Shown one piece after another: positions 15,012 through 62,095 of a stretch of DNA of 64,000 nt. The stretch comes from Telmatactis stephensoni. Its lineage: Eukaryota > Cnidaria > Anthozoa > Actiniaria > Isophelliidae. Within the stretch, counting starts at the first letter, position 1; each line of letters begins with the position of its first letter. Where the stretch lies: NCBI GenBank assembly GCA_029948255.1, contig JALIZF010001701.1:310001-374000 (forward strand), read 5' to 3'. The position numbers were made by a program, and so were the translations under genes. Under the pieces are notes generated by a model. The model was not told the origin of the DNA, did not search any database, and saw only the letters and a program-made list of their open reading frames with translations.

Positions 15012-15042
<31 letters not shown>

Positions 15043-15373
15043 GTTTTGTTTTGTTTTGTTTTGTTTTGTTTTGTTTTGTTTTGTTTTGTTTTGTTTTGTT
15101 TTGTTTTGTTTTGTTTTGTTTTGTTTTGTTTTGTTTTGTTTTGTTTTGTTTTGTTTTGTTTTGTTTTGTTTTGTTTTGTTTTGTTTTGTTTTGTTTTGTT
15201 TTGTTTTGTTTTGTTTTGTTTTGTTTTGTTTTGTTTTGTTTTGTTTTGTTTTGTTTTGTTTTGTTTTGTTTTGTTTTGTTTTGTTTTGTTTTGTTTTGTT
15301 TTGTTTTGTTTTCAGTGTTTTGTTTTGTTTTGTTTTGTTTTGTTTTGTCTTGTTTTGTTTTGTTTTGTTTTGT
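15012..15373. repeat. (TTTTG)n pentanucleotide microsatellite
   Basis: About 70 tandem TTTTG units run almost uninterrupted, with one break (TTTCAGTG near 15311-15318) and one variant unit (TTGTC). Every frame stays open, so long FVLFC/NKTKQ reading frames appear on both strands. They are not genes. Confidence 0.97.
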
Positions 15374-19160: not shown

Positions 19161-20128
19161 CTAAGCATCTGATTGAGAAATTAGCGCTGGCGGGCTCACA
19201 ACGTACTTTTTCAGCTGCAAAGGCTGTATCTCCTTCGTACGATGGACAATCTTCCTTCTCCTCCGCTTCTCTCTTAGAGCTAATGCAACTGCTATTCCAA
19301 TGAGCACCGCGAAAAGGGTACCCAGAAATGATGACACCGCTGCAATGATGACCGTTCGAGGCTCAAACACAACATCTTCTGGTTGGTCATTGTCACTCTT
19401 CACACGCTTATAACGCATCAGAGGTCCTGATGACAAATGATAGAGCTTGGACTCATCCGGGAAACTCCTTGCACGGGTAATATCTCTCCTGATTTTGTTG
19501 TTCTTAGCGCACCCAATGGCACATTTAGATTTTTTGGAGCTTTTGTGACAGACCATAAGTAAGCAATGAAGGTAGACAATGGGATTGTCGCCTATGAATC
19601 TAAATGCTTTGATGGAGAATTTCTGTTTTCTGCTGACAGAGTACTTGTACACCATAGTGTCATCAAGAGGACATCTAAAAGCAAAACAAAAGAGAAATTA
19701 TAGCATAGCCGTACGATATAACGCGCGTTCTGATTGGTTCAACAGCGTGCACCTAATCTCTACACTACCCCACACTCGTGCACCCGGAACTGAAAATTAA
19801 AAGAGCGCATAAGTTGTCCTTTTGATCAAATTTTCAACAAGAAAAGGATCGACCACATATCAGACGATATTGTGAACTTTTTCGGTTCTTCGTGCTCAGC
19901 CATTAATTAACCTGTTGCGTGCATCCTTAACTAGAAAAGGGAAAACGTAAAAGGGATCAAACATAAATGGAAAGCATAAATGAAAAGGAAAGCGATAGGA
20001 AGGAAGAAAAAAATAAGGGATCAAAAGACTACAGAGAGAGAGAGAGAGAAAAGAAGGATGAAAAAAAAAAAAAGAAAGAAAGAGAGAAAGAAAGAAAGAA
20101 ATTAAAGAAAGAAAGAAAGGAAGGAAGA

Positions 20129-20175
<47 letters not shown>

Positions 20176-23100
20176 AGAAAAACAGGGTCAGATTCGGCCT
20201 CCTCCGGAGACGACTTTGAGCCCTTTTTTCTCGATATTTTTCACAAATATCCTTTCGGCAGTTTCCATTTTATGATGGTGCACCCCTTCCTAAAGACGGT
20301 ACACCCCCTCCTGACGATAATCCTGAATCCCCCCTGAAAAAGAAGGAAGAAAGGAGGGAAGGAAGGAATAAAGCAAGGAAAGAAATATATACATTAAATC
20401 CCCCTACGGTATTTATCTAATCTTAAAGCTCTTACCCATTATCAAGGAAGACGTAACTTGGTTGTGTCAGCTCACTAGTCGTTGTAGTCGCCAGGCATTT
20501 CTCAGCAAACACCACCAAACCTGCGTTTTTCGACATTATTTCAAATTGTATGTTTATAGGGTCTCCAATCTGGATCTTTAATGGATAATCACTGGGCCTG
20601 TGTGGCGCGCCCTTTATCGAAATTAAGTCCATTACGAACGTGAAGTTGCCAAGGGCGGGTTCTGCAGCCTCGACTTCTCTAACTGCTTGATAGCTTGTCA
20701 CATACCTGGCGTATTTTTGTCTACGATAGCTGCAGTTAAATGGCAAAGTGAGGTCAGCCCTTCGTGTTACTACTGCTCCAGGAGCTGAATTTATGAGATT
20801 GTATGCTCTGACTTCATTCATGTAGATAATGGTGTCTTCTGTTTCCTGGACGGTTGTTCCGCAGCTGTTCAAAGGTGCTCTAAGGTGAATAGAGTTCCCA
20901 GTTGTGTTAGCAAGACAGCTTTTGTCTTTTAGGTGAAATTTGGATGGATCAAGATGTGAGTACATTTTGGGGTTAATCTCAACATCCATGTAGTCCTCCT
21001 TGCACATGATCTTTGTTGCTCTTGTTGTTCGTTTGGTCTTGGGTTTTGAAGTTGTTGGTATGGCTGTTATGGTGGGCTCTTTACTTGTTGGAATGGTTGT
21101 TGGTGTGCTTGATTCCGTCTTGCTTGCAGTTGTAGCAGATCTAGATGTTGGCCCTATAGTAGGATCTGGGTTAGGTGGACCTTCAATATCTTTTGTTGGT
21201 AATGGCGGACTAACTGTAGAATCAGGTCGATCCGAGAATGGGACGTCGTCAGTCGGTGGAACCGGTGGGACCGGTGGAACAGGTGGACCCTCAATATCTT
21301 TTGTTGGTAATGGCGGACGAACTGTAGTGTCAGGTCGATCCGAGAATGGGACGTCGTCAGTCGGTGGAACCGGTGGGACCGGTGGAACAGGTGGACCCTC
21401 AATATCTTTTGTTGGTAATGGCGGACGAACTGTAGTGTCAGGTCGGTCCGAGAATGGGACGTCGTCAGTCGATGGAACCGGTGGAAACGAAGGAACATAC
21501 GTAGTCGGTGGGACCCATGGTACGTCTGGAGGCCAGCCTGGCGGTGGAAGGTGTGGATAACCTGGATTTAAACAATAATGAATGCATTTCTATCAGTATC
21601 TAGGACATTTCAGATATACTTAAGGAATATAAACCGTGCCCACATGTCTCTGTACTGTGAAAATAAATTACACGATGGAAGATGTAGAGCAAGAGAAAAG
21701 CAAGCTGAGGAACTTACCTCCCCTCCCCTTTCCCCTCCTTCCCCCTCCTCGTCCTTTCCTTTGAGAGCCAGCAACGCAGGCTAGCCTTGGACAGGATTAA
21801 ATTCCACGATGCTTTGCTACACTGATTCAAATGCGCTAGCAACTAAACTATCAGGCTCAGGCTCTCTTCAGTTGCTTTGAAAAGCTCATTTCAAAGCTTA
21901 TTTTTGAAATACAATGAATATTTGTTAGATCAAAACAAAACTTGCTATGAGTACGCAGTAGTACTAGAGTTTTGGGTTTACATTAATAAAACAAACAGTT
22001 ACCATAGCAACGTAATTCTTATCAAAAACTCTCTCATTCTTCAATTTTTAATTTCTTGCTAAGGTTTCTACCTTAAGGGTTGAAATTCCACTATATGAGA
22101 TATAAGAAAGATCATGATATGCACTGAATCATTAATTTTATGATTTTCCTAATTTTAAGATCGATATTTTAAGCGGGATATTAGCCATCACCATGGTAAC
22201 AAGAGCAAAATTCATAATTACCAAAAAATAATAATTCATTGCATAAACCTCTTGATTTGAACTGTTGCTAAAAATTTCACACAAAAATATAGAATACTGC
22301 ATGAATTATTTTCAGGCGGGAAAATTCAAATGTGTTATGAAAGACCGATAATTGTTGCACCGAATGAAATTATATTTGGAAAATAGCTGAATTAAATATT
22401 TTTGCTCATTTGTAGAGTTAAACCCCAACTTAAAATGCTTGAATATGGCAAATTTGTAGTTTTAAATATCTGGCCTCTGTTGGTTGGGATAGCTAGAATA
22501 CCACTGGGCATAAAAAATAAATATCCAGTAGTTTATATAATCACCTTTTATCATATAATTATTTATAAAATACCTATATATATTTCTTAATTTCGAAAAC
22601 TTGTTCTTTTCACTAGTGAAAATAACATGTTCTTTTCACTAGTGAAAAGATCGTTACCATGGTTAATTGAGCGCATTTACTCTAAAGATAGTTTGTTGTC
22701 TCTTGATTTGATAGTTATATGATAAATAGAATATTACATGCTCGCTTGGAGATACGGTTTTATCTTCTCTTGTTCGCTGCGCTCACTCGTGAGAGATCTT
22801 TTCAACACTCGAAGATAAAATCCGTATCTCCGCGCGCCCATGTAATATCCTCTATTTAATTAAGTTAGAATTATATATCCTCAACGACTTATATACAAAG
22901 TAAAGATATTGATTACCTTTCAAGAATAAATTCAAACTATATTTTTATGATGATTATTATACTCCGTCAAAAATGTATTGCAATTCCACTATATATCAAC
23001 ATCTTTTTCTCCTTTTTCTTCCACTTTTTCTTTCCTTTTTTTCTTTCTCTTTTTGTTACTGTTATTCCACAAAACCTAATGACAAATCTTTCTCAGCGGA

Positions 23101-26100
23101 TCATTTTTACTTTGTAGCTTAGCTCCAAATTTTAGAACTGAAACTAGCAGCCATTTCGAAAGCCTTTGCAACTTTGGTTGCTACATTAAACTTTAGTGAA
23201 ACCTACACATATATTTTCACAGACACAAAATTCTTATATATTTTACTAAAGAAATCTGTATATGTATAAGTATATGTATTGGAAAAACTGAATCTGAATC
23301 ATCTCAGTAGCTTTAGACAACATTTAGAGTTTGCTTTATCTTACCTGGATATGGGGTGAAATCTGGAGGCGGAGTTATCATTGTCCTTCGACGCGTTATT
23401 CCCAATATTGTTCTCCTACGACGGCTGGTGAAAACCGTTCTCCTTCGACGGACGGTGAATATTCTCCTACGTCGGGTTGTCCAAGTGGTTCTCCTTCGAC
23501 GGACCGTGTAAATTCTCCGACGACGGGTGGTCCAAGTGGTTCTCCTTCGACGGACCGTGTAAATTCTCCGACGACGGGTCGTCCAAGTGGTTCTCCTTCG
23601 ACGGACCGTATATATTCTCCTACGGCGGGTAGTCCAAGTGGTTCTCCTTCGACGGACCGTGTATATTCTCCTACGGCGGGTAGTCCAAGTGGTTCTCCTT
23701 CGACGGACCGTGTATATTCTCCTACGGCGGGTACTCCAAGTGGTTCTTCTCCTTCGACGGACCGTGTATATTCTCCTACGGCGTGTACTCCAAGTGCTTC
23801 TTCTCCTTCGACGGACCGTGAATATTCTCCTACGGCGTGTTGTCCAAGTGGTTCTCCTTCGACGGACGGTGTATATTCTCCTACGGCGGGTAGTCCATGT
23901 GCTTCTTCTCCTTCGACGGACGGTGAATATTCTCCTGCGGCGTGTTGTCCAAGTGGTTCTCCTTCGACGGACGGTGAATATTCTCCTACGGCGGGTAGTC
24001 CAAGTGCTTCTCCTTCGACGGACGGTGTAAATTCTCCTACGGCGGGTACTCCAAGTGCTTCTTCTCCTTCGACGGACTGTGAATATTCTCCTGCGGCGTG
24101 TTGTCCAAGTGGTTCTCCTTAATAATAATAAAAAATGAGTCTTTATTAACCACAAGATAAATACACATATCATATGTTACAACAATGTGCTAGACTGAAA
24201 CTACTACCTTCGACGGACGGTGTATATTCTCCTACGGCGGGTAGTCCAAGTGCTTCTTCTCCTTCGACGGACGGTGAATATTCTCCTACGGCGGGTAGTC
24301 CAAGTGCTTCTCCTTCGACGGACGGTGTATATTCTCCTACGGCGGGTAGTCCGAGTGCTTCTTCTCCTTCGACGTACGGTGAATATTCTCCTGCGGCGGG
24401 TAGTCCAAGTGCTTCTCCTTCGACGGACGGTGTATATTCTCCTACGGCGGGTAGTCCATGTGCTTCTTCTCCTTCGACGGACGGTGAATATTCTCCTGCG
24501 GCGAGTAGTCCAAGTGGTTCTCCTTCGACGGACCGTGTATATTCTCCTACGGCGGGTAGTCCATGTGCTTCTTCTCCTTCGACGGACGGTGAATATTCTC
24601 CTACGGCGGGTAGTCCAAGTGGTTCTCCTTAATAATAATAATAAAAAATGAGTCTTTATTAACCACAAGATAAATACACATACCTTATGTTACAACAATG
24701 TGCTAGACTGAAACTACTACCTTCGACGGACGGTGTATATTCTCCTACGGCGGGTAGTCCAAGTGCTTCTTCTCCTTCGACGGACGGTGAATATTCTCCT
24801 ACGGCGGGTAGTCCATGTGCTTCTTCTCCTTCGACGGACGGTGAATATTCTCCTACGGCGGGTAGTCCATGTGCTTCTTCTCCTTCGACGTACGGTGAAT
24901 ATTCTCCTACGGCGGGTAGTCCATGTGCTTCTTCTCCTTCGACGGACGGTGAATATTCTCCTACGGCGGGTAGTCCAAGTGCTTCTTCTCCTTCGACGGA
25001 CGGTGTATATTCTCCTACGGCGGGTACTCCAAGTGGTTCTCCTTCGACGTACGGTGAATATTCTCCTACGGCGGGTAGTCCGAGTGCTTCTTCTCCTTCG
25101 ACGTACGGTGAAAATTCTCCTGCGGCGGGTAGTCCAAGTGGTTCTCCTTCGACGGACCGTGTATATTCTCCTACGGCGGGTAGTCCATGTGCTTCTCCTC
25201 CTTCGACGGACGGTGAATATTCTCCTACGACGTGTTGTCCAAGTGGTTCTCCTTCGACGGACCGTGTATATTCTCCTACGGCGGGTAGTCCAAGTGGTTC
25301 TCCTTAATAATAATAAAAAATGAGTCTTTATTAACCACAAGATAAATACACATATCTTATGTTACAACAATGTGCTAGACTGAAACTACTACCTTCGACG
25401 TACGGTGTATATTCTCCTACGGCGGGTAGTCCATGTACTTCTTCTCCTTCGACGGACGGTGTATATTCTCCTACGGCGGGTAGTCCATGTGCTTCTTCTC
25501 CTTCGACGGACGGTGTATATTCTCCTACGGCGGGTACTCCAAGTGCTTCTTCTCCTTCGACGGACGGTGTATATTCTCCTACGGCGTGTTGTCCAAGTGG
25601 TTCTCCTTAATAATAAGAAATAATGAGTCTTTACTAACCACAAGATAATTAAATCTTATGTTACAACAATGTGCTAGACCAAGAGAGCATAAATAAGAGA
25701 GTTAAACTTGTTAATGGGGCGCGCGCCGTGATGATTCCCATCTGTGCTATTTTTAGTAACCGGATACAGTTTAATTTTCGTCTTACCCAACTCCCGTATG
25801 TCATGATTTGATACTTCTGGACCCAGAGAACCGTTTAGTGCAGATTTGAGTTTTCAAAAACAGCGTTAAAAACAAATTTTTCTTAGTTCTGTTTTGTTCA
25901 TATTATCTAGTATCAAAAGTGTGTACTTTCTGATTACAAAGTAATGATTGTGATGAAAAAAAAAAACAAAAATGTCGAGGATTTTGTTCGGTTTTTGAAT
26001 GAAATTTTTTGTGAAAATGCGCGCGCTACTGGCGCATCACACTTCATCGAGCGCGCGCTTATACGTTTATTTAAACATTTTCGCTTTTTTTAGATGAGAA

Positions 26101-26834
26101 AAAGTCGTTTCTTTCTGAAATTTTTTTATGCATGCTACTAGTAGATATCTTATATGGCATTTCGTGGAATTTAGAATAAATTTGATATCGATTAGGTGAT
26201 TTTATGAAGCTCAAATCGCCAAATTCCACTCGTTCAAATTTTCGACGCACGGGAGTAGGGTATGACGAAAATTAAAATGCATCCGGTTACTAAAAATAGC
26301 ACAGATGGGAATCATCACGACGCGCGCCCCATTAACAAGTTTCCCTCTCTCATTTGTGCTCTCTTGGCCAGACTGAAACTACTACCTTCGACGGACGGTG
26401 AATATTCTCCTACGGCGGGTTGTCCAAGTGGTTCTCCTTCGACGGACGGTGTATATTCTCCTACGTCGGGTACTCCAAGTGGTTCTCCTTCGACGGATCG
26501 TGTATAATCTCCTTCGGCGGGTTGTCCAATTGGTTCTCCTTCGACGGACCGTGTATATTCTCCTACGGCGGGTAGCCCAAGTGCTTCTTCTCCTTCGACG
26601 GACGGTGTATATTCTCCTACGGCGGGTACTCCAAGTGCTTCTTCTCCTTCGACGGGGGGTGATTATGGCTCTCCTACGACGGATCGTGAATATAGTTCTT
26701 CTTCGACGTGCTACACTGGTGATCGTTTTACTTCGATTTGTAGGAGGCTTCTTAGATTCTGCTTCCCATGAAAATAGCACCACAATTAGAAGCAAAATCA
26801 GAACCAGTCTTATGCACCCACAAGTCTGCCACAT
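19161..26834 (-). CDS. Arg-rich-repeat ZP-domain transmembrane protein
   Basis: Seven exons on the minus strand: 26834-26386, 25605-25393, 25302-24721, 24627-24208, 24117-23345, 21561-20436 and 19674-19161. All junctions are GT-AG and in phase, totalling 4077 nt or 1358 residues. Order: signal peptide (about 1-27, MWQTCGCIRLVLILLLIVVL); about 41 repeats of RRRR-TTWTT-RRRR-IYTV (S/T, Y/F and 4/5-Arg variants, residues about 45-800); Pro/Thr linker with VPPVPP units (812-990); ZP module (998-1260) with four ZP-N and six ZP-C cysteines and the hallmark NGCPLDD; a furin-type RYKR site (about 1275); a TM helix (1296-1321); a 37-residue basic tail. ZP modules polymerise into extracellular filaments after release at the basic site. 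The N-terminal arginine region is unlike any ZP protein I know. Its role may be a polycationic coat, matrix or peptide precursor, which is inference. An in-frame upstream ATG (26927) exists, but 26834 gives the signal peptide. Confidence 0.88.
20030..20182. repeat. GAA/GAAA purine microsatellite
   Basis: Degenerate GAAA/GAGA leading into pure GAA units, in the intron between ZP-gene exons 6 and 7. Confidence 0.9.
21160..21480 (-). repeat. 108-bp tandem repeats coding the Pro/Thr linker
   Basis: Three copies of a unit of about 108 bp lie within ZP-gene exon 6. Each encodes TDDVPFSDRPDTTVRPPLPT plus KDIEGPPVPPVPPVPP. Unit length is a multiple of three, so copy number can change without breaking the frame. 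Confidence 0.8.
21562..23344 (-). other. ZP-gene intron 5
   Basis: A 1783-bp intron between donor CCAG|GTAAGA (minus) and acceptor AAATCCAG|GTTATC. It contains only AT-rich DNA and one foldback (22723-22860). Confidence 0.75.
22723..22860. mobile_element. foldback MITE in ZP-gene intron 5
   Basis: TAAATAGAATATTACATG and GGAGATACGGTTTTATCTTC are mirrored by GAAGATAAAATCCGTATCTC and CATGTAATATCCTCTATTTA. Confidence 0.75.
24118..24207 (-). other. duplicated short intron, copy 3 of 3 (intron 4)
   Basis: A 90-bp intron, CGAAG|GTAGTAGTTTCAG to TTATTATTAAG|GAGAACC (minus). Near-identical introns lie at 24628-24720 (93 bp) and 25303-25392 (90 bp). All are phase 2 inside an Arg codon, and splicing rebuilds CGT-CGA-AGG-AGA exactly. 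Confidence 0.88.
24628..24720 (-). other. duplicated short intron, copy 2 of 3 (intron 3)
   Basis: A 93-bp intron with the same donor and acceptor as its neighbours. It differs mainly by one extra TTA in the acceptor-side tract. Confidence 0.88.
25303..25392 (-). other. duplicated short intron, copy 1 of 3 (intron 2)
   Basis: A 90-bp intron almost identical to those at 24118 and 24628, showing that exon-plus-intron units were duplicated together. Confidence 0.88.
25676..26371. mobile_element. foldback enlarging ZP-gene intron 1
   Basis: Arms of about 125 bp (25676-25802 and 26245-26371) match closely: CTTGTTAATGGGGCGCGCG, GTGATGATTCCCATCTGTGC, TTTTTAGTAACCGGAT. They enclose an M1-type MITE fragment (about 25845-26070). 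Intron 1 uses the same donor and acceptor as the 90-bp introns, so this insertion explains its 780-bp length. Confidence 0.75.
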
Positions 26835-28650
26835 GATGGGTGATTGAGTCGGTTCTTGTAAACTTGAAGTACAACCAAACTGGCGAAGCCTCCTTCGATT
26901 CTTCCATGAGAAAATGACTTGGATCATGAGTGCTATTGCCTAATGTATGTGGCTTTTCCAATTCTCTTGAGAGACTTGAATCAATGAGGCTGCTCAGTTT
27001 ATGAATGCAAAAAGTATGCAATTGGTTCTTGACATTCGCACGAGCTGTTTTCTTACCGAAGTACTTAGCTTCACTTAAATTGAGTTTGAAATTTCAAACG
27101 ATATCAGAACAATAGCGGCAAAGTCGCGTGTCCACGCTTTTGAAAACGCATCTTTTTTGTTATGCTTTCGCTTTTAATTCTACACTGAAACAGAGTTTAA
27201 GTTTCTTAGACAAAATAGGCGCGCCTGCGCACGTGACCGTGTTCCAAATATCCTGTGTCACACTCGAAGAAGCATGCATTTATTACTAAAATCTTTCCGA
27301 GTGACAATTCCCTTCATAATCCTGTGTCTCATTTGATTCGGGCAATACACGACCACAAATATTGGTTCCGAAAAATTTGAAGTGCGTTCTTTCTGAATGT
27401 GCTGTGTGAGGGACAGGGAGTGGCGATGGAGTGAGGCTGTGTCACTCGACAAATGTTTATATGGAGAACTCGCGATCGGATATTTATAATTGGTATATTA
27501 CGCGCGCTCTGATTTGCAGAGAACCGTGTGTGATTATAGTACTCACACATAGATAATTAATATCATTTAGTGAGTACACGCGCTGTGATTGGTTGAAAAT
27601 GTTTCAATGAGTATTATTTTAAACACAAATAGATTGCATTCTCCCGTTGGTCTGTACTCTAATACGAGTTCGTCTCGTGTCGTACGTTTTTGTTCGCACC
27701 ACATTTTGACGTCATCTGTGCACTATTAGAGTACAGACTCACGGAAAAATGGAATCTATTTGTTAAAATTAATATGTAATTATTTAATTTTTTACTGCTA
27801 GCGGCAACGTTAATAAGATTGACTATATCATGTCATAGAAAATGGTTCCCATTCATATAAAATCGGGTATCTCTTTTTATTTAATTTCTAATGTGATATT
27901 GAATTATGGCACAAAGCTAGTACTTCCGGTGAAATCGCTCGCTCTGATTAGCTAAGAGCATGTAAGAGCTTTGAAAGTCGGCCGATTATTTTCCTGTAAT
28001 CGACCGAACCGGATTACGGATTCAAAAACTATCGGCTTGTTGTACATCACTTTGTATCATTGTTATTATTATTTTTTCTATAAATTTTAACCTTATTTGT
28101 TTCATGAGTTCTAAATCAATGGCAATCATTCCCAAGAGAGTGAATTGAACAAAAGACAAGGCAGACATGTTGGTGGACTTGACAAAAGAAAACCAATTCA
28201 CTCTCCTGCAAATGATTGCAATACAATAATAAAGCTTTAAATATATGAAAACCAGCTAAAACCAGTGTACTTAACGTCTGGTCTTAATGATTTCCCGGTT
28301 TATAAAATTATCTTTCCAGGTGATGGAAAAATATATGTATTGCACACATTCTCTTTACCGCAAGCGAATTTCCATTTTTTGTTTTGACGATTTTCGTTGC
28401 GTTTTCCCCTCGAATTTTTTTTTTTTGGGGGGGGAGGGATAAAGATAACCCTTTTGTTCGTACGAAGCCTCCCCTCCCCTCCCTATTAGTGTTCTTTTTT
28501 TGCTGTTGATTTTTAACAATTTACTTCAAATTTCAATCATAAACTAAGAAATATCCCTAAACTTCCAGCGATTATCTCAACATTTTATCCTTCATATTTT
28601 TCCTTCAATGTATATTGCCATTCTTTGCATAGTTGATTAATTATTACAAA
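26835..28650. other. interval between divergent ZP and RRM genes
   Basis: Non-coding in appearance. It should contain the ZP-gene promoter just above 26834 (minus) and the RRM-gene promoter near 28650-28800. A foldback at 28118-28222 (GCAATCATT...AGAGTGAATTG and complement) is the only clear structure. Confidence 0.5.
28118..28222. repeat. 105-bp foldback
   Basis: Arms GGCAATCATT/AGAGAGTGAATTG and CAATTCACTCTC/AATGATTGC enclose about 45 bp. Confidence 0.6.
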
Positions 28651-40069: not shown

Positions 40070-41530
40070 TCGGATTGTTTATACACACACCATTGTATGC
40101 TCTTCTGGGTATTCCAACTGCGTTTGCATATACGGTTGCGCAAATCAATGCGACACGGTTTGATATAACTCAAAATTTGAGGTTTATCCGTACCCACTTC
40201 GTATGCAATTGTGCGTATTCTAACTGCGTTCGTCGATGTGGATGCGCCAATAAATTACTCAAAATATGAGGTTCAGTCGTGTGCGATTCTGCGTTTTCTA
40301 ACTACGTTTGCAGATGTGGATGCGCAAATGAGTTACTCAAAATATGAGGTTAATTCGTGTGCGATTCTGCGTTTTCTAACTACGTTCGTAGATGTGGTTG
40401 CGCAAATAAGTTACTCAAAATATGAGGTTTATTCGTGTGCGATTCTGCGTTTTCTAACTACGTTCGTAGATGTGGTTGCGCAAATGAGTTACTCAAAATA
40501 TGAGGTTTAGTCGTGTGCGATTCTGCGTTTTCTAACTACGTTCGTAGATGTGGTTGCGCAAATGAGTTACTCAAAATATGAGGTTTATTCGTGTGTGATT
40601 CTGCGTTTTCTAATTACGTTCGTAGATGTGGTTGCGCAAATGAGTTACTCAAAATATGAGGTTTAGTCGTGTGCGATTCTGCGTTTTCTAACTACGTTCG
40701 TAGATGTGGTTGCGCAAATGAGTTACTCAAAATATGAGGTTTATTCGTGTGTGATTCTGCGTTTTCTAACTACGTTCGTAGATGTGGTTGCGCAAATGAG
40801 TTACTCAAAATATGAGGTTTATTCGTGTGCGATTCTGCGTTTTCTTACTACGTTTGCAGATGTGGTTGCGCAAATGAGTTACTCAAAATATGAGGTTTAT
40901 TCGTGTGCGATTCTGCGTTTTCTTACTACGTTTGCAGATGTGGTTGCGCAAATGAGTTACTCAAAATATGAGGTTTAGTCGTGTGCGATTCTGCGTTTTC
41001 TAACTACGTTCGTAGATGTGGTTGCGCAAATGAGTTACTTAAAATATGAAGTTTATTCGTGTGCGATTCTGCGTTTTCTTACTACGTTTGCAGATGTGGT
41101 TGCGCAAATGAGTTACTCAAAATATGAGGTTTAGTCGTGTGCGATTATGCGTTTTCTAACTACGTTTGCAGATGTGGTTGCGCAAATGAGTTACTCAAAA
41201 TATGAGGTTTAGTCGTGTGCGATTCTGCGTTTTCTTATACGTTTGCAGATGTGGATGCGCAAATGAGTTACTCAAAATATGAGGTTTATTCGTGTGCGAT
41301 TCTGCGTTTTCTTACTACGTTCGTAGATGTGGTTGCGCAAATAAGTTACTCAAAATATGAGGTTTATTCGTGTGCGATTCTGCGTTTTCTAACTAGGTTC
41401 GCAGATGTGGTTGCGCATTTGAGTGCGAGAATCGATTGTTTATGCATACTCGATTCGTATGCTTTTCTGCGTATTCTAATTACGTTCGCGGATGCGCAAA
41501 TAAGTGACATTAATCGAGTAGAATTGGTGT
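40070..41530. repeat. 78-bp minisatellite array
   Basis: About 15 clear units (40211-41410) with degenerate units at both edges. The unit is CGTGTGCGATTCTGCGTTTT, CTAACTACGTTCGTAGATGTGG, TTGCGCAAATGAGTTACTC, AAAATATGAGGTTTA. The length is 26 codons, so a frame (CAILRFLTTF) stays open until TAG variants. I see no gene signal. Similar degenerate units return at about 42465-42530, so the TTAA element at 41639-42346 split the array. Confidence 0.9.
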
Positions 41531-41638: not shown

Positions 41639-42346
41639 GCCTGGTTCGCACTAGCGACATAAACACACAGAAGCAACATACACAGACTTAGTAGAGTGAT
41701 GGCACTTAATCCGTGAAATAGAATCTAATAGTCAATGTCTAAAAGTCGAATCAAAACGAAAGAAAACAATAGAAATAGTGTTTTCTAATGTCTGTTAGAC
41801 TAATATCTATTTCACGGATTAAGTGCCATCACTCTAATGTACTGCTCATTAGCAGTGCTTGTCTTTTCACTAGTGACATAAGCATAACCACAAGCAACAT
41901 ACACAGACTCAGTAATGCACTGCTCATTAGCAGTGCTTGTCTTTTCACTAGTGACATAAGCATAAGCAACATACACAGACTCAGTAATGTACTGCTCATT
42001 AGCAGTGCTTGTCTTTTCACTAGTGACATAAGCATTAAGCACAAGCAACATACGCAGACTCAGTAATTACTGCTCATTAGCATTGCTTGTCTTTTCACTA
42101 GTGACATAAGCATAACCACAAGCAACATACACAGACTCAGTAATGTACTGCTCATTAGCAGTGCTTGTCTTTACACTAGTGACATAAGCATAAGCACAAG
42201 CAACATACACAGACTCAGTAATGCTAGACTCTGTTTATCAATGCTTATCAGTGCTTTCGTTTTTAACGTTTACGTGGTGAATTCGCTACACTGAGTCTAC
42301 GTATATTGCTTGCGCTTATGCTTCTATCGCTAGTGTGAACCAGACT
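41639..42346. mobile_element. TTAA-flanked element carrying its own tandem repeats
   Basis: Ends GCCTGGTTCGCACTAGCGA and TCGCTAGTGTGAACCAGAC, each next to TTAA. Inside are five tandem units of 72-78 bp (41837-42225: CTGCTCATTAGCAGTGCTTG, TCTTTTCACTAGTGACATAA, CAACATACACAGACTCAG) and a nested foldback at 41692-41836. Confidence 0.75.
41692..41836. mobile_element. foldback nested in the TTAA element
   Basis: TAGAGTGATGGCACTTAATC and its complement, followed inward by CGTGAAATAGA, enclose a centre of about 65 bp. Confidence 0.75.
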
Positions 42347-50211: not shown

Positions 50212-52675
50212 ATGCATTTCGGTGAGAAAATGGTTCAGGATTCCTCTGCACTGTCTACGATGAGCGAAAGCGAAGGGAGAAAGGTACCGTTGTTTTCGAC
50301 TCGATCTACCATCCGTACACTATTCCAGCTCTGTATTTTGCAGCATTTGTATCATTTGTTTTATATTCATCGAAAGTACACAAAACGAACCTGATAATCG
50401 AGCTATTATTATGATTGATTAATATAGAATTTTGTAATTGGGTGTTTAATTTAATTAATGTTCATTAGAACTAAATCCTGAATTCCTCTGGTGTCTTTCA
50501 GTGGTCTAAACCCATCATGGAAAAGCGACGACGCGAAAGAATCAACAAAAGTCTAGAAGAATTAAAACGACTAGTTCTAGAGGCCCAACATCGGGATGTA
50601 AGTACAGAAAGAAACAATTAAAGTGTTCAGTAGTTATGAGGTGCCCAGGAGGTGGAGGAGATACCCTCTTCGATCGACAGAGGTTTTGTTTACAAGGACA
50701 TGTATAACATTCTAGCTGTCGTGACAGATAGTCCTGTCCGTTGTAAAGAGGTGTCCGTATTATGGAAGTGTCCATATTATGGAGGTGCCAATAAGAACGC
50801 TGTGGGGCGCATCACAGCGTATCATCATATCTGCAGTAGGCTATTCATTATATCTGCAGGCTATCATTATATCTGTAGTCTAAGACACCTGAGTCTCGAA
50901 AAACGAACGCTATTTTCCCGTTGTTTTCCAGAATTCTTTATTATTGCGTGCGAGCGAGGTCAGTGGACAAAAATATTAAGAAACGATAGCATTTATTAGA
51001 AACGAGAATTTCTTCCCATGCACTTACATGTGCAAACGAAGGTACCACGCTCGTTTTTTGATGAATTTTTGTTGTATTGCTTGTGCGCACCATACATGAT
51101 GTATTCTGGGAAATTACGGGAATATTTTAAGATATTTGAACAAGTTTTGAATTTGGCGTCTTTCTTTTTCCTGCAGAGCTCAAGGTATACTAAACTAGAA
51201 AAGGCAGATATTTTGGAAATGACGGTGAAGCATTTGCGATCCTTGAGGAATCGCCAGAAATCTGGTAAGCCATGGATATGCACTTGTGAAACATCTAGCC
51301 CGGAACAGGAACTGCCTGTCAGTGACACCTTCCCAGAGTATCAATACTTCCGTAACCATCATCTTGTTTGTCAACTAAAATTCACCTCGATGTTGCCAAC
51401 AAATCATTATGACCCAGCGCGCTCAAGTGAGGCCAGAGGGCAAAAATATAAAGCAAGCCAGTTCAGGATATCTCTATATACTGAACACATGCAACAGAAA
51501 ATGGGTGGAATACCTTCATCTGATAAAAGTGCCTAGAATGACTAACGAAATCTCCTAAAGTTTCTGTTACACTAGCTCTGATATAACAATCAATGTTTTT
51601 CTCATATAAATGCAATGGATCCCAATGATATCATTTCTTAATTTTTTTGTTCCTTGATCTCGCTTTTGTGCGCACGAAAGAGAGCGAAAGAGAGAATTGT
51701 GGGAAACTTTGGGAAGGAAAATGAGCTTTTATCATGTAATTCCAAAAATCACAGTACAGAAATATAATTACCATAGCTGGAAAGAGCACGTCAAAATTAA
51801 TAAAACTGTGAAGTTTGAATGAAGCAACTTGTAAACTCAGGAAGATATGAATTTTCCGAAATCGAAATTTTTATCAGTGAAAACATTCGCTGGTAGACAA
51901 GAGATGCCTACCAGCAAAGGTTTTCTTACAAATTCACACTTTTCAAAAATTCATATTCTCGCGAATTTTGGATTTAGTTCCTTCAAACTTCACTGTCTTG
52001 CTAATTTTAGCATGCTCTTTCCAGCTATAGTAATTCTGTTTTACGAATTTAAAAATACCTGATAAAAGCTCATTGTCATAAAGTAGGACTGAAATTAGAT
52101 TTTTTTTAGTTCACCTGACTACTGTTTCCTTAGCAGGGTTTTTTTGTCAACCAGATTCTGCATTCCCCTTACACCTATCGGTCTCGAACTAACGAATGAA
52201 CGAAAAAATAAATATTAATTGGCCGATTCATTTCTTGATTTTGTTGTTCTTAAAATTTCTCTTTAAATGAAGCTATTGCCCTTTGCACTACGCTCCCAAT
52301 TGATTTTTAAAGTAACATCATTCTTGCACGATTTCAGTTTCGTCTGGTCAGCTGCTGAGCCAATCACTTCTCCCTGGTGTATCTGTCGGCTGCTTTCGTT
52401 GTATCCCAGACATTGACCATAGCGTCACAACACCCAATAGCGTCGTTATGGATACAAATCGAACACCAGTGTCACGCCATCCAGGTCTTGTTCCAGAACG
52501 CGAGAGAAGTGTCACGGTACCTTCAGATCTAGGCCCCCTCGGTCTTTCGCCCCAACGTGTTCATCCTGTTCATCTAAGTACCGCTGTCCAGTTTATACCC
52601 GTGTGCTCAAGTGAATATGTTAATGTATGTCCGCCCGGTACGGAATCAAGTCGGGCATTTTGGAGACCGTTTTAA
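50212..52675 (+). CDS. HES/Hairy-type bHLH repressor ending in WRPF
   Basis: Four exons: 50212-50283, 50502-50597, 51177-51264 and 52338-52675. All are GT-AG and in phase, giving 594 nt or 197 residues. Exon 2 opens with KPIMEKRRRERINKSLEELK: a basic region with the HES-family proline, then helix 1. Exon 3 holds helix 2 (KLEKADILEMTVKHLRSL). The intron positions inside the bHLH match the usual HES layout. The last exon ends FWRPF-stop, a variant of the Groucho/TLE-binding WRPW tail. The Orange domain that normally follows the bHLH is not recognisable; exon 4 goes straight to a Ser/Pro-rich linker. HES proteins act in the nucleus as Notch-induced dimeric repressors; the upstream CSL-like sites agree. 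ATGs at 50212, 50230 and 50257 are all in frame, so the start is not fixed. An unseen Orange-encoding exon between 51265 and 52337 was looked for and not found. Confidence 0.87.
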
Positions 52676-54875: not shown

Positions 54876-55960
54876 TTACATTTCGTCATAAGTTATTACT
54901 ATGGTCAGATATTCGCTAAGTTCCTCTGCAAAATCATCGCTGATGATGCAGAGTTGGTGGGATTCAAGTTTTGCCTCACGATTCTGTTGTTCACAGTTGT
55001 CGTCGGTTCTAGATGAAACAGATATAGGGCCCTCGATGAAATCATACTTCCTCAAGAAACTTGCGCATCTTTTTCGTTGGTTTTCCTGCACGATTTTGAG
55101 AGACAATTTCTTGCCACTGACTTTGTTTTGACTCATCTTTAAGATCCAAACCCTTTGCTTGCTTGAAGCATGAATTAGGTATTTTGTACCCCAAAACCAC
55201 GGGTTTTTGTGTTTGGCTGAAAGCCCAATCTCTTGCATGAAGATAACTTTTGGTCAAATAAAACCCTGCGCCATCGCTAAAATCTCGCCTTCGAAAGCCA
55301 CAGTTCACCTCAATTCCATCGGAACAAATATCTTGTGCGCTTTGAAGGTCTGTTCCATGGAATAGCACAGTGTGTAGCTCATCTTTGCATAACATGGACA
55401 AAGATTTGGAGAATTGTACTCTCGAGCTATCGTCCTCGATGATAGTACGCCCATCACTAGAAACATTCACATCAGGTAAGTTTAAAACATGGACGCCAGA
55501 ACGCCACTGCGGTTTTGAATCAAAACTGCCATACACGCTCGACAAAACAGGGTTGTATTTGAATTCGTCGATTACAAAGCGCATAGGCAGCGTCGATGGG
55601 GTCAACATGATCGGGAACCAGCTTCGAGCGTTTCAAAATTGCTTTCACTGCGTCACTACCTTCTTCAAACCCAACATTGACCAAAAAGTCTTCGTTCAAT
55701 TTGTTTTTCAGTGAAATATCCTCAATTTCTTTTAAGCTATTTTCCAAGAAAATGAGTAGCCAGTCGTTTATGGGTTCGTGATTCCTTATGTTTTCTTCAA
55801 AAGACTCGAGTTTGTCCAAGAAGCCATTTTTAATGTTTAGTAGATAACAAAGGATGTTTGACTGTTCTTTGGGATCGATCGAAGGCGAGGATAGCGCTTT
55901 TTTGAAGTCGTTCCCCCCTGAAAAACCTCCGTTTCTTCTGAAATTCGAATGTTTTATCAT
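54876..55960 (-). pseudogene. ART-fold (DUF3990-like) gene, copy A, two frameshifts
   Basis: A minus-strand single-exon gene of about 360 codons broken into three frames. It starts at MIKHSNFRRNGGFSGG. An extra base near 55585 turns the DAAMRFVIDEF stretch seen in copy B into another frame. Another extra base near 55060 breaks RKFLRKYDF. Reading across both restores alignment with copy B to the end (YDEM-stop). The catalytic-type motifs are present: LFHGTD, DFSDGAGFYLT, ARDWAFS and SHQLCIISDDFAEEL. These fit the ADP-ribosyltransferase-like DUF3990 fold. Two independent +1 changes in otherwise well conserved coding suggest a young pseudogene or assembly indels. Confidence 0.72.
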
Positions 55961-56021
55961 GGCACGATAAAAGATGATTCCGCTTAGTCGTCTTGTTTGT
56001 AACTAAAATGATTGTTTTCAC

Positions 56022-57380
56022 TGACTTTGCTTTGCGTTGTCCGCTTTTGTTCGAAGAATTAGTACGCCTACTGAAACCGCATTATTCGACGTCACAAATA
56101 ACACCATAAACTCAATCCACAAGCCTTCCAAACACGAAAAAGGAAACGGTTCTGAATTTGAGACGTGTACTTTTTCGGCTTGGAAACCAACAGCACTACC
56201 GAGACAGCGTATTGAAACAACGCCACAGTTGTTTTCCCTTTGCTCGATAACCTGCTTAGACTGATGTCATACGAAACTGTTAGGGATTGGTTGAAGAAAA
56301 TTCCGCCCCTTGTACCGAGTTGAACTGGATTGGTTGAAGTCGAACTCGATACTAATACCGTGTCATGACTCATGCAAATCGATCGAACCGTTTGAAAAGG
56401 CTTTACATAATCAATGACCATGTTCCTATATTTGGAGAACAATGTCGTAAGCGGAAGTTGCTGACCTTTAATCGAAGCTTCCTTAGCTGATGAGGTATGA
56501 TATGTGAAAATAAATACTGAGGGTGACTAAGTAACCTTAAGCTAAGTAGACTGACACAAGTATTCATATCAAAGTGACTTTAATCGGGAGTAACAGTGCA
56601 ATCACTGTACATCTACAGGCTAAAGGGCGTCCTTTTCCCCAGTGGCCAACTCGTAGATTGTATATAATGATTGTCTTGATGGTAAAACATGGCTAGAATC
56701 CTGGAATCACCGCGTCAGTTTCCACATACTTTCAAAGTTTTTCAAAACTGTTAGGACCTTTCCGCTACGCTACTAGCTATCTTTACACCTTGTTCTTTCG
56801 TTGGTCAAGCTGTGGTTACAGAAAAAACGGTATGCACCCCTTCGAATTCTTGGTGCTGTTTCAAAGTATCAATTAAAGCTTGCTCAGTCCGGCGGTGCCT
56901 TACCATCAGACAACCTCATGTAAAGATGTCTGGTATGTTGACATAAAATCCATCTTCGGAAGCTCGAATAAGTTTAAGGTATTATCTCAAACTCAGTTAA
57001 ATCTACGACAGATGTCTATTTCCAAAAGTGACGGCATTTGTACACTGTCAACACTTAAAATACCGCTGAACAGTTTTTGTGAGTCGACTTCTTGGAATTG
57101 ATCATTGAGTGAGTCCGAGAAAACGATTGTGGCATTGCTTTGCTCAGTTGTATGGTATTGTTAGGAGTGTCTACAGCATTCAAAGCCAAGGAATGGCGTT
57201 TTCATGACCAACAGCTAAATGTAATTAACGTGTCCTTACTACAGTGCCTCCCCTTTTGGGACAACAAAAGGCTGAAATAACGACTTTCAAATCCGTGCTT
57301 CAATCAAAATCTACGTACGTTGTAATATCGAAAAGAGATTTTCTACTTGCATTGAATTTCTCAATCAAGATTACAGAAGG
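56022..57380. other. interval between divergent ART genes
   Basis: Its left part (56040-56330) resembles 63690-63880, extending the A/B segmental duplication. A coding-like stretch (56925-57100; YVDIKSIFGSSNKFKVL, ending at a stop) lacks a start or splice support and may be a gene remnant. Confidence 0.4.
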
Positions 57381-58388
57381 ATGATGTCTGAGAAGCTGAG
57401 TATCTTTTACAACGCGGTTTCCGAGTTTGTAGGAACGACATCCGAAACAATCAATGATTCTCTTAACGTATACGCGAAGAATCTTGATCTTGAAATCCAA
57501 AGCTTTGGTCCTGGACCTTGGAGTGTTCATGAGTTTAACTACATTTGTAGTGGATATAGTGGCGAGGAGTTTATTCCATTTAGTTGTGTTTTGCTCTACG
57601 GACTGGTTGAGAGGCGTTCTCTGATTAGAAAACAAATCAATTTGGGCTGGGATGGTTTCTTCGGTCTATTTCTACGAGAACAACGAGGATGCAGTAGATA
57701 CCCTTACCAAGAATCCATTACAGGAAAATGGTGCACGCAAGAAATCCCTCAATCTGGAGATTCCACAAGCGTGGAAACAGATTCGAAAACCGTAGTTAAC
57801 ATATTGAACATGCAAGGAAAACCTAAGAAGGATCATGCGTATCCTTTGTTGAATGGTAAGGCCTTCCCAAGCGCTCTAAAAGAAGACGGTTTTTTAGTAT
57901 TGTTCCACGGGACGGGTCATGATGCTGCTGTTAATATCATAGAACAAGGAATAGACACAAAGAAGAGCCGTGCAAAGCAAGACTTTAGTAATGGTGGGGG
58001 ATTTTACCTTAATGATGATTACAAAGACACCGAAAACTGGGCCTTTCATAGAAATCCAAAATGCCAAGCAGTTATAATTTTCAAGATTCCACTAAATGTG
58101 TTTGATGAGTTTAGAGCATCATCTATTAATCTGCAAGGCGATGCTCGCAAGAGAAAGTGGAGGGAAATCACTTCTCAGTGCCGCTCTGGAAAGCTAGAAA
58201 AGGAATTTCGAAAGAAACTGAAATCTGTGTCTTACATAGAAGGCCCTATGGCCAGTATCAACGAAAGTATACGTACTGGAAAGATTCGCGGACAAAAAGC
58301 GGGAAGCTATCAAATGTGCTTGCATTCTGAAGCACTAGCCGAAGTGTTTAACAGGCATTTACATTCTGCGGTGTTTTTTAAAGTTTGA
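57381..58388 (+). CDS. ADP-ribosyltransferase-fold (DUF3990-like) protein, intact
   Basis: An uninterrupted 335-residue frame, apparently a single exon. The N-terminal 150 residues are not recognised. From about 172 the protein has LVLFHGTG (the HG dyad of ART folds, 175-178), HDAAVNIIEQGID, DFSNGGGFYLN (201-211), ENWAF (about 218-222), VIIFKIP, and a C-terminal SYQMCLHSEALAEVF (309-323). The two minus-strand copies have the same motifs in the same order, so these are the conserved core. Members of this superfamily use NAD to modify proteins or small molecules. Whether this one is catalytic is unknown: the third residue of the usual H-Y-E triad would be in the SYQ stretch and reads Q, as in some divergent or inactive members. 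No signal peptide or TM is visible, so it is probably cytosolic. It differs much more from A and B than they do from each other. MM at 57381 is the first ATG of the frame. Confidence 0.78.
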   Translation: MMSEKLSIFYNAVSEFVGTTSETINDSLNVYAKNLDLEIQSFGPGPWSVHEFNYICSGYSGEEFIPFSCVLLYGLVERRSLIRKQINLGWDGFFGLFLREQRGCSRYPYQESITGKWCTQEIPQSGDSTSVETDSKTVVNILNMQGKPKKDHAYPLLNGKAFPSALKEDGFLVLFHGTGHDAAVNIIEQGIDTKKSRAKQDFSNGGGFYLNDDYKDTENWAFHRNPKCQAVIIFKIPLNVFDEFRASSINLQGDARKRKWREITSQCRSGKLEKEFRKKLKSVSYIEGPMASINESIRTGKIRGQKAGSYQMCLHSEALAEVFNRHLHSAVFFKV

Positions 58389-59352
58389 ATGTCCCCATGG
58401 TTGTTCACAAGAACTATTCTGTATGAATGCCTGAAATTTTTCTTCTAGTTTGGGCCCATTTAGGATAAAACTTTGATTGTTAGATTGGAGATACAGAAGT
58501 AATTTGCAAAAGTTCGATCAGCTTTATTTTATAGTTACTGTACTGTCCACGTCTTTCGTACGCAATGTATCTGGCAGCTGTAAATATATATAGTCATCCA
58601 CTCTAAAAGTTTTCGGCTAAATATCACACCAAAAAATATTTGATTTGTAGTGGATGGTCATTATGCTGAGTAAAAGTAAATTTCATAAATGTTCTCATGC
58701 GTTTTTATTTCTCCAGTCCATGTGTTACAATGATTAACCGAAGCAAACAATATAAGCGAATTGTGCTTAGCACTATTTGACAATTATTTACAATTTTACA
58801 ATCTAGTTACAACATTCACATTGGTAATCGGACAGTGCATGATATATATAATAAAAGCAATCCGTTGAAAAAACCGCCTCCTTTTGGATCTTCTTACACA
58901 ATAACCGAGGGCTATCAGAAACGGCAGTCCTTAACGCTCTAATCATTTGCAAAAAGTATAGATTTGCGAGTGAGCCCCCTTCAAGCTCAAAAACATCATA
59001 ATTTATCTATTGTCTGGTGGCTTTGGGAGTAGAACGGTAATTAAGTACACTGAAGTGTAGTTTGAGTCGTGCCGAATGCCGACGCCCAGTGTCGTAGAAG
59101 TATAACACCGTATCGCCATCCAATTCGAGCATTCAAGGCACCATGTTAAAGAATTCAAGCCAACGTTAAATTATAGATTTACTGAACTGACTTGTAGGGC
59201 ACGATTTATCCTATAAGATGATTTAACCCAATGCTGGTTGAATAAAACAGCCGAGTACTATTATTCTAAATAGTTATCGAAGGGATATCAGTCTTTATAA
59301 CGCACATCTATATAGTAATATACTGAGTATAAACCAAAAATTGTAAATTTAT
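58389..59352. other. intergenic between convergent ART genes
   Basis: No gene supported. It should contain the 3' ends of the intact gene (plus) and of copy B (minus). Confidence 0.5.
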
Positions 59353-62095
59353 TTACAACTCGTCATAAGTTAATATTATGGCCAGATATTTGCTAAGTTC
59401 CTCTGCCAAAGTCATCGCTGATGATGCAGAGTTGGTGGGATTCAAGTTCTGACTCACGATTCTGTTGTTCACAGTTGTCTTCGGTTCTAGATGAAACAGA
59501 TATATGGCCCTCGATGAAATCATACTTCCTCAAGAAATTGCGCATCTTTTTCGTTGGTTTTCCTGCACGATTTTGAGAGACAATTTCTTGCCACTGACTT
59601 TGTTTTGACTCATCTTTAAGATCTAAACCCTTTCCTTGCTTGAAGCATGAATTAGGTATTTTGAACCCCAAAACCACGGGTTTCTGAGTTTTGCTGAAAG
59701 CCCAATCTCTTGCATGAAGATAACTTTTGGTCAAATAAAACCCTGCGCCATCGCTAAAATCTCGCCTTCGAAAGCCACAGTTCACCTGAATTCCATCGGA
59801 ACAAATATCTTGTGCGCTTTGAAAATCTGTTCCATGGAATAGCACAGTGTGTAGCTCATCTTTACATATAAACATAGACAAATGTTCTGAGACTTTCAGT
59901 CTCGAGCTATCGTCCTCGGTGATGGTACACCCATCACTAGAAACATTCACATCGGGTAAGTTTGAAACAGGGACGCTAGAAGGCCACTGCGGTTTTGAAT
60001 CAGAACCGCCATACTCATACACGAACGACAAAACAGGGTTGTATTTGAATTCGTCGATTACAAAGCGCATAGCAGCGTCGATGGGGTCAACATGATCGGG
60101 AATCAGCTTCGATCGTTTCAAGATTGTCTTCACTGCGTCACTACCATCTTCAAATCCAACATTGACCAAAAAGTCCTCGTTCAATTTGTGTTTCAGTGAA
60201 ATATCCTCAATTTCTTTGAAGCTATTTACTCGTGCCCAGGCCGTAGGCCGGCACGAGTCTAGGTTTACCGTTCAATCTATCTATCTATCTATCGTCGTAG
60301 TCGCAAATGTGTATGCAAATTAGGCAGGCATGGAAACGAGGCCACGCACGTTCCATCGCGACAACATGACTCAGCTCAGTTTGACTTGCATCAAGTAGTA
60401 AACTTTCTGAGCAAAACAGAGTTATTTTCACGAGTCAGGAATGTTTAGTAACTTAAACTTCACTATAAATGCAGTCGGATCGAGCCATTGCGTTATAGGA
60501 GTCTCTCGTGAGTCTCAATCAAGGTAAATTCAAGCTTCTTCATTCAAAATTGACTTACAAATCGACGATAACTTATATTCAAATGTTAGCTTGCAAATCT
60601 CGCTTAGTTTCTAAAACATGACTAAGCTGGTTTGAGACATATATTTATATCCCTCTGTTGTTTAGACTTTTGGAATTTTTAGATGACTGGCATTTTCATG
60701 TTACTGACAAAACTTTCTTGATTCGAGGCAGTTGAATTATATTTCCATGTTCGATTTGATTTACTAAAAGCCGGCTAAAGTGTCTTTCACTCGTCAAGAT
60801 ATTTGTGTTTGGTGCTAATAATCTCTTTGGTACTTAGAGAATAATTTGAAGGATTCAAAGCGTTATCAGTTCTGGAATTATATTCCTTGTGCAGTCAAGA
60901 GCGTTCATATTTCCAGTTTGCTGATTTTGAAAATAGGCAAACACAGGGAGCCCAAACCAAGAGTTTGGTTGTACTTATCAAGAATTTATGTCTTTTATTT
61001 CATTTTGATATTCTACCTCTAAGCTATTATAGTACATTTTTGTGTTAAGTCTTTGTTGCGTACATCTATTTGAAACTGTATAGAAATTACTCACACAATA
61101 AGTTTTCAGGGAGGTGTATCTCATTTATTAGCCAAGTTTGTATGATAACCTCTGTCTTTCATGAGGAAGATGTATAAAAGGAAGATTGGTGCAATAAATC
61201 ACTTGATGAGAAACTTAAATTTTCTGCCTTGTTTCTGGTGCTTTTCTCCAGTAATACACTGCGGTCAGAACAGTGCTTGTGATTTGTTCAAGTAACAAAG
61301 AATGGTAAAACAAAAAAAAGGAGAGAGATTAAATGTAGAACAAAAGGCATTGTTCATCATAATCCACATATTTTTTTTTACTGAAATGTTTGAACAAATC
61401 ACAAGCTTCATTCTAATGGTAGTGCAGGATTACCCCTTTTCTCTGGATTATCCTGTTCTCCCATCCCCAGAAAAAATTAGTCAGCAGGAATGTGTGTGCA
61501 TAGAAATTTTGATTTATTGTTCCCCAAATTGATGCTTAGGCAATCGAGCACATTCCTTTGCTAGTAAAAGAATTGGCTAACTAATAGGAGACTAAATCTT
61601 TTTGTTTTCTTTTGTTTTCAGTAACAACATTACTAATACAAACCAAATAGTCCTTTTTCTTTCATCTGCAAAGTAACTCTAGAATACATTAGACACCTAA
61701 ATTTTATTATTTGAAAATATTACAAATTGGATGGGCAACCAAGCAAATAAACTGATGGCTGGCATCTAGCTTATGTAAGACCACAGGTATCCCAAGCTGG
61801 CTCAATTCCTTGGGCTGGGCACGAGTAAACGCACCATTGTGCGTCTAGTTTCTAAGAAAATGAGTAGCCAGTCGTTTATGGGTTCATGATTTCTGATGTT
61901 TTCCTCAAAAGATTCGAGTTTGTCCAAGAAGCCATTTTTAATGTTTAGTAGATTACAAACGATGTTTGACTGTTCTTTGGGATCGATCGAAGGCGAGGAT
62001 AGCGCTGTTCTGAGGGATTTGAAGTCGTTTCCTCCTGAAAAACCTCCGTTTCTTCTGAAATTCGCTTGAACTTTTATCATGGTTGAATTTGGCAA
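59353..62095 (-). pseudogene. ART-fold (DUF3990-like) gene, copy B, split by an insertion
   Basis: Minus-strand coding starts at MPNSTMIKVQANFRRNGGFS (62095) and runs to NDWLLIFLE near 61849. There a 1.6-kb element (60228-61848) interrupts it. Coding resumes near 60227 with NSFKEIEDISLKHKL and continues through LFHGTD, DFSDGAGFYLT, RDWAFS and SHQLCIISDDF. An extra base near 59405 shifts the last codons, so the current frame stops early at 59393; the ancestral stop is at 59353. The insertion has no minus-strand GT-AG borders, so it is unlikely to be spliced out. Protein identity to copy A is very high by eye, so the duplication is recent. The gene is almost certainly dead as drawn. Confidence 0.75.
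60228..61848 (+). mobile_element. Helentron-like non-autonomous element in ART copy B
   Basis: The 5' end is ACTCGTGCCCAGGCC, with its inverse GGCACGAGT 20 bp inside and GGGCACGAGT again near the 3' end: an asymmetric terminal inverted repeat. The 3' end is a GCAC-CATT-GTGC hairpin followed by CTAG. It sits between T residues of GCTATTT|TTTCTAAG (copy A keeps the empty site). A CTAT microsatellite lies near the 5' end (60274-60293). These are the marks of Helentron/HINE elements. No coding sequence is recognised in its 1621 bp. Confidence 0.75.

Follow-up and report, generated by a model that had tools for sequence, protein, structure and literature searches.

A predicted zona pellucida gene with a long arginine-aromatic repeat array in the sea anemone Telmatactis stephensoni

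The stretch of DNA studied here is a 64,000-nucleotide (nt) window from the genome of Telmatactis stephensoni (assembly GCA_029948255.1, contig JALIZF010001701.1; C249:310001-374000 in our numbering), which was also searched as a whole (483.5 Mb, 1782 contigs). On its minus strand, between positions 26834 and 19161, the window carries what is very probably, judging from the sequence, a real gene for a zona pellucida (ZP) protein preceded by a very long arginine-rich region. A first-pass annotation of this DNA had proposed seven in-phase exons, and these can indeed be joined into one frame of 4077 nt and 1358 residues with a single stop at its end, GT-AG borders at six out of six introns and agreeing phases in all seven exons (Table 1). 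The joined chain is a predicted gene model, built from genomic sequence. The encoded protein would contain, in this order, a signal peptide, a 763-residue repeat array, a Pro/Thr linker, the ZP-N and ZP-C domains of a complete ZP module, a transmembrane (TM) helix and a short tail, and the architecture, strand and exon chain proposed in that annotation are supported, as is its guess of a cnidarian origin. An in-frame ATG is also found upstream, at position 26927, the use of which would add 31 residues.

The C-terminal half of the predicted protein is an ordinary ZP protein. The Pfam scan, which covered the first 186 residues and those from 806 to the end, leaving out the middle of the array, detected ZP-N (4.9e-17, residues 999-1092) and ZP-C (1e-26, residues 1117-1239), both above cut-off, and no other family in the regions scanned. 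The module has ten cysteines within residues 999-1243, aligned with Actinia, and its sequence relatives in the PDB include ZP3 and uromodulin. For a query made of the ZP, TM and tail regions, the best protein match was a 'ZP domain-containing protein-like' of Actinia tenebrosa (49% identity over 96% of the query), and a comparison of the ZP part with proteins of 0.55-1.75 times the full length gave four matches, one from Montipora and three fish ZP proteins. The A. tenebrosa isoforms X3 and X4 (P0002 and P0001) share with the window protein the order of parts, a basic site and a hydrophobic patch, but they reach only 461-475 residues and contain Ser/Pro/Thr repeats instead of the Arg array.

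Downstream of the ZP module we find, in the order typical of ZP proteins, the basic site KIRR, the patch LYHLSSGPL and the TM helix. The four aligned rows from Actinia, Montipora and fish, among which one species supplies two, likewise show a basic site followed by a conserved patch of the L-[ST]-x-GP form. In the Actinia relative, modelled with AlphaFold2 (mean pLDDT 55.8, higher in the ZP part), a strand at 367-377 covers the patch and comes after RVRR at 352. In uromodulin, cleavage before the external hydrophobic patch (EHP) frees a propeptide and starts polymerisation (PMC7737619). Because the basic site aligned across the relatives also lies before the patch, KIRR is the likely processing site of the predicted protein; RYKR, the site named in the first-pass annotation, comes after the LSSGP patch and is probably not the one used. 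The C-terminus ends in a TM helix and tail rather than in a glycosylphosphatidylinositol (GPI) signal.

Within the 763 residues of the array there are 369 Arg (48%), 183 Thr, 39 Trp, 24 Tyr and 19 Phe, with no Lys, Asp or Glu at all, and the longer region formed by residues 27-803, equally devoid of Asp and Glu, has a net charge of +373. Arginine is grouped in 87 runs of at least three residues (66 of four, 20 of five and 1 of three), each of them followed by 4-6 other residues, mostly IYTV, IFTV, TTWTT or STWTT, to form a half-unit. The spacers between runs measure 4 or 5 residues with one exception of 6, and exactly one aromatic residue (Trp, Tyr or Phe) is present in 82 of the 87 half-units. 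Counted in this way, the array comprises 40 full units of regular form and, in addition, 7 irregular half-units (the first-pass annotation gave about 41 repeats). Irregular sequences are found at its edges (TIFTI and AIITP; TVFTS, TILGIT and TMIT), which would fit an array homogenised in its middle.

Open frames prove little in such an array, because its units are multiples of three and several frames are open. The frame was examined through the 40 regular units, which were aligned with the 7 irregular half-units excluded and each distinct variant counted once. Sixteen of the 22 distinct variants fall on the third base of a codon, and 17 are synonymous when read in the Arg frame, versus 27% expected (P 1.2e-6; as repeat units are related, the P values of this test are a guide only). 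The remaining frames of the gene strand yield 3 and 1 synonymous variants, and those of the opposite strand 3, 14 and 0. The best competitor, with 14 of 22 (P 0.004), is not tied to the signal peptide or to a ZP exon, and it is probably a partial echo, since such a frame may share wobble positions with the Arg frame. This registered alignment superseded a first version of the test in which the RRRRR units were out of register (25 variants, of which 20 were synonymous in the Arg frame and 16 in one opposite frame). The bias of the variants shows that the predicted Arg frame is under coding constraint, and it favours the minus strand to which the gene had been assigned. Moreover, 191 codons of the array are AGA or AGG, each one step from a Lys codon, and none has changed to AAA or AAG, so Arg itself, with its guanidinium group, seems to be kept beyond the mere charge, unless recent homogenisation erased such changes. 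All the Arg codons are found mixed along the array, which excludes simple codon slippage.

The introns give a view of how the repeat grew. Introns 2, 3 and 4 (90, 93 and 90 nt; positions 25303-25392, 24628-24720 and 24118-24207) are nearly identical, and both ends of intron 1 match them, flanking a 689-bp insert. Exon-intron units were therefore duplicated, and the insert in intron 1 probably arrived after the duplication. Each of introns 2-4 also has an AATAAA at an equal position, and read-through beyond the exon meets a TAG at once; polyadenylation within these introns would yield a secreted arm lacking the ZP module, and as they are three copies of one intron, chance may account for it.

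Table 1. Features of the predicted poly-Arg/ZP gene, in positions of the window
Feature	Position	Strand	Basis
Exon 1: start codon and hydrophobic signal peptide (residues ~1-26), followed by the first Arg repeats	26386..26834	-	splice GT, frame, hydropathy
Exon 2: Arg repeats	25393..25605	-	in-phase splicing
Exon 3: Arg repeats	24721..25302	-	in-phase splicing
Exon 4: Arg repeats	24208..24627	-	in-phase splicing
Exon 5: last Arg repeats, beginning of Pro/Thr linker	23345..24117	-	in-phase splicing
Exon 6: Pro/Thr linker, ZP-N, most of ZP-C	20436..21561	-	splicing, Pfam
Exon 7: ZP-C end, KIRR site, LSSGP patch, TM helix, cytoplasmic tail, stop	19161..19674	-	splicing, Pfam, hydropathy, alignment
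Array of repeats covering residues 41-803, with 40 regular units (17-18 residues each) and 87 Arg runs, broken by introns 1-4	23373..26714	-	repeat and unit counts
Insert in intron 1 resembling a mobile element; its 124-nt terminal inverted repeats are 91% complementary	25679..26367	no strand	inverted-repeat comparison; absent from introns 2-4
Linker repeats within exon 6: about three of 36 residues (108 bp)	21173-21484	-	tandem-repeat listing
KIRR, predicted processing site; its aligned counterparts are RVRR in Actinia, RRRR in Montipora and basic sites of fish ZP proteins	19485..19496	-	alignment, motif search
LYHLSSGPL patch; strand 367-377 lies here in the modelled Actinia relative	19419..19445	-	alignment, AlphaFold2
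Predicted TM helix, approximate, residues 1293-1323	19269..19361	-	hydropathy
AATAAA, ~60 nt beyond the stop codon	19094..19099	-	sequence

The protein search suggested by the first-pass annotation was fruitful for the ZP half, with the Actinia protein as best match, but not for the repeat half: against 5.8 billion proteins, no match at E<=0.001 was obtained for the array among the 7999 scored candidates sharing most words with it, a word-based preselection that could miss relatives. As a control, a copy of the array in which 50% was mutated is still scored below 1e-130 by phmmer. A typed piece of the repeat had no match at E<=10 among PDB sequences. In the Telmatactis genome, a 33-base pattern of the array DNA, with up to 3 mismatches allowed and very common words skipped, matched 41 times, every one at the array locus. 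Among 11 matches to the array, 10 corresponded to its own locus, and the other one (E 2.5e-5, 41% identity) to a tandem array at C27:985387-986471 (L047), which was set aside and judged unrelated: it is satellite-like, with a different unit, several open frames (NCRGGYTVR, VDTQCAIAG and others) and 18% Arg in the matching frame. In the literature, no Arg-rich or polycationic ZP or cnidarian matrix protein, and no sea anemone matrix ZP protein, was recognisable by title or abstract opening among the matches listed, and the main text of a Nematostella matrisome paper has 0 occurrences of zona pellucida, arginine, polycationic and cationic (PMC12549020). The predicted cationic arm is new and unmatched in the searches made; the membership of the protein among ZP proteins is ordinary. 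Fish protamines, Arg/Trp antimicrobial peptides and mussel adhesive repeats offer Arg clusters with short neutral spacers, combinations of cation and aromatic, or Lys/Pro/Thr repeats, but they are not ZP proteins. In mucin-like proteins the ectodomain is dominated by Ser/Thr/Pro repeats, whereas here Arg dominates the array and only the linker is rich in Pro and Thr.

The ZP-C family gives 79 exon-level matches in the Telmatactis genome. The closest paralogue of the window gene lies on contig C505 (C505:258448-265621, L029), with ZP exons ~53-65% identical to its own, and a small tree grouped the window protein, the C505 paralogue and the Actinia protein (89/94), with an open fork and a long-branch warning. 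Directly upstream of the C505 ZP exon, on the same strand, there is a KKPT-type block of 428 residues, 192 of them Lys, 119 Pro and 105 Thr, with no acidic residue and a net charge of +192. The donor (AAGAGT/GTAAGC, the slash marking the splice point) and the ZP acceptor (TTTTGACAG/AGA) are both in phase 0. All the variants among the 65 KKPT units fall at third codon positions. No R-X-[KR]-R motif is present in the Lys block, where 65 KK pairs have Pro as the next residue. The Lys-Pro-Thr block of C505 differs from the Arg-aromatic array of the window gene, but both are long, polycationic and in phase beside the ZP exon; at the level of the predicted products, two sister ZP genes carry cationic arms that are chemically alike and unrelated.

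Six further paralogues were viewed over ~4.8 kb upstream of their ZP-N exons, and Pfam was run on five of the exon-like frames picked out visually and on one additional frame. These six and C505 are only part of the ZP loci in the genome, and any view of how far cationic arms have spread in it would be provisional. The matches obtained were D8C_UMOD for C538 (9.7e-22), SRCR for C473 (L032; 3e-30), EGF for C102 (L034; 3e-8) and EGF just below the cut-off for C215 (L031), whereas an EGF-like frame in L036 and a further frame in the C538 locus (L033) had no Pfam match, and nothing was recognised within the same distance in C366 (L035). In C538, the domain (L033:496-1050) amounts to a uromodulin-like arm in T. 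stephensoni. Purine-rich frames, high in basic and acidic residues alike, were also seen in L032. As in the window gene, the ZP exons of C538, C473, C102 and C215 come with a variable upstream arm, but one of D8C_UMOD, SRCR or EGF exons instead of cationic repeats, and therefore the slot before the ZP module can be regarded as the variable arm of the family.

We propose that the gene encodes a membrane-anchored ZP precursor of the uromodulin or egg-coat type, whose filament displays a polycationic side arm that binds polyanions, a reading for and against which we find the chances evenly balanced. Cleavage at KIRR would release the patch-bearing propeptide, the ZP module would then polymerise, and the N-terminal array would sit, by analogy, where uromodulin bears its filament branches. 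Each subunit would thus display about +370 charges in 87 Arg clusters, 82 of them paired with a single Trp, Tyr or Phe. Such an arm could bind polyanions outside the cell, namely sulfated glycans of mucus, nucleic acids and the surfaces of microbes, and could cohere with itself through Arg-aromatic contacts into a positively charged coat, gel or glue. The alternation of Arg and aromatic residues fits cation-pi cohesion. The Lys-Pro-Thr block of C505 would do an equivalent job with other residues. The polycationic coat or matrix already imagined in the first-pass annotation gains support because this sister gene has a separate Lys-based block, and the presence of unrelated cationic blocks in two sister genes suggests that the display of charge is the property under selection. 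Uromodulin combines a ZP module that has a cleavage site and EHP with an N-terminal region forming filament branches, as proposed here, and its filaments capture bacteria (PMC7737619). It differs in having an EGF/D8C arm with no such polycation and a GPI anchor in place of the TM helix and tail. Mesoglein of Aurelia is another cnidarian ZP protein, one of the matrix; compared by description, it comes with no mention of an Arg array in the passages concerned (PMC13361971).

Several observations weigh against this proposal. The furin-type motif R-X-[KR]-R is matched by 86 of the 87 Arg runs, a point to which the first-pass annotation gave no weight, so the arm may not survive secretion whole, and the absence of Lys could also be explained by recent homogenisation of the array. 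In the Actinia relative this place is taken by a short Ser/Pro/Thr region, with no cationic arm, and no comparable arm was recognised within the ~4.8 kb viewed in the six other paralogues. In C505, an open TTxPTTEEPKE block of up to 1775 residues, acidic (net -125) and with its 5' boundary not fixed, is found further upstream, and no signal-peptide exon was found in the ~1.4 kb above it; the C505 gene model is therefore incomplete, and its splice join is inferred.

The main alternative, unlikely but deserving serious attention, is a polyprotein: convertases would cut the RRRR runs during secretion and release small cationic Trp/Tyr peptides (e.g., 17-mers of the STWTTRRRRIYTV-RRRR kind) of antimicrobial or signalling nature, with the ZP part as a carrier that anchors or times their release. 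Many-copy precursors are known for cnidarian neuropeptides. The array resembles multi-copy precursors in its series of furin-type motifs between short repeated peptides behind a signal peptide, and its regular spacers and the lack of any Lys in place of Arg also speak for this reading; moreover, maturation at KIRR needs a cut at a basic site, so a suitable protease is likely to be present. However, acidic spacers or pro-parts that balance the basic peptides, typical of multi-copy precursors although not required, are missing from residues 27-803, and no amidation Gly is found at the spacer ends. Ile comes next after 40 of the 87 Arg runs and is a poor furin P1' residue, a point that could not be confirmed in the literature. 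The multi-copy peptide precursors known to us lack a ZP-TM end, and the cationic block of the sister gene has no furin-type motif, which makes us lean, not strongly, towards an intact arm in the family.

Improbable, in our opinion, is that the region between signal peptide and ZP module is a low-complexity spacer evolving freely and fast in this subfamily, its charge having no special role. Such drift would agree with a region that differs completely among relatives (Ser/Pro/Thr in Actinia, TTxPTTEEPKE plus KKPT in C505) and with the visible duplication of exons and introns, but it hardly fits the strong synonymous bias, the 191 AGA/AGG codons with no change to Lys, the mixed Arg codons that rule out simple slippage, or two sister genes that both became strongly cationic. 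We see very little chance that no working fusion exists and that the array is satellite-like with an accidental open frame, or is transcribed from the plus strand: several frames are open and one on the opposite strand has a milder synonymous excess, but the frame test favours the Arg frame, which the signal peptide and linker share across six consistent introns, an AATAAA comes after the stop, and the array pattern, in a genome search that skips very common words, was matched at this locus only. Least credible of all is an array folded as a beta-solenoid instead of a flexible polycation, a fold rejected here since the regular strands drawn by AlphaFold2 for exon 3 alone (mean pLDDT 65.8, pTM 0.57) have no PDB fold match at E<=0.001, the five models are inconsistent (mean pLDDT from 31 to 66), and the program is reported to invent beta-solenoids with stacked uncompensated charges from repeat sequences (PMC11795689).

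Coming back to a ZP filament with a polycationic arm, a wider and more tentative view, to which we give somewhat less than an even chance, is that long polycationic arms arose more than once on anthozoan ZP filaments, which would serve as their platform, one time from Arg-aromatic and the other from Lys-Pro-Thr repeats. Such arms would be a sort of gene-encoded animal polycation acting outside cells, forming a cohesive matrix that rests on Arg/aromatic contacts and binds microbes and mucus. Extracellular animal matrices are mostly regarded as acidic and sulfated. If true, a secreted ZP protein with a non-acidic arm of about +370 net charge would illustrate a way in which animals might produce a large polycation outside the cell and tolerate it. 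The Lys-armed sister gene makes the idea testable, as charge display would be the selected trait if both arms bind the same polyanions. Wet adhesion, coacervation or antimicrobial coats are uses for which the Arg/aromatic repeat also offers a natural design.

As for the rest of the window, an Rfam scan found nothing at gathering scores. Three frames matching DUF3990 form a local cluster at 55042-60184, two of them above the Pfam cut-off and one just below it (31.9 vs 32.2), and a frame at 51018-51536 contains a helix-loop-helix domain's second half, scored at the cut-off (20.8 vs 20.7). Two nearby arrays of 78-bp tandem repeats occupy positions 40198-41424 and 41835-42223 (15.7 and 5.1 copies, respectively), and 72 copies of TTTTG extend from 15014 to 15373.

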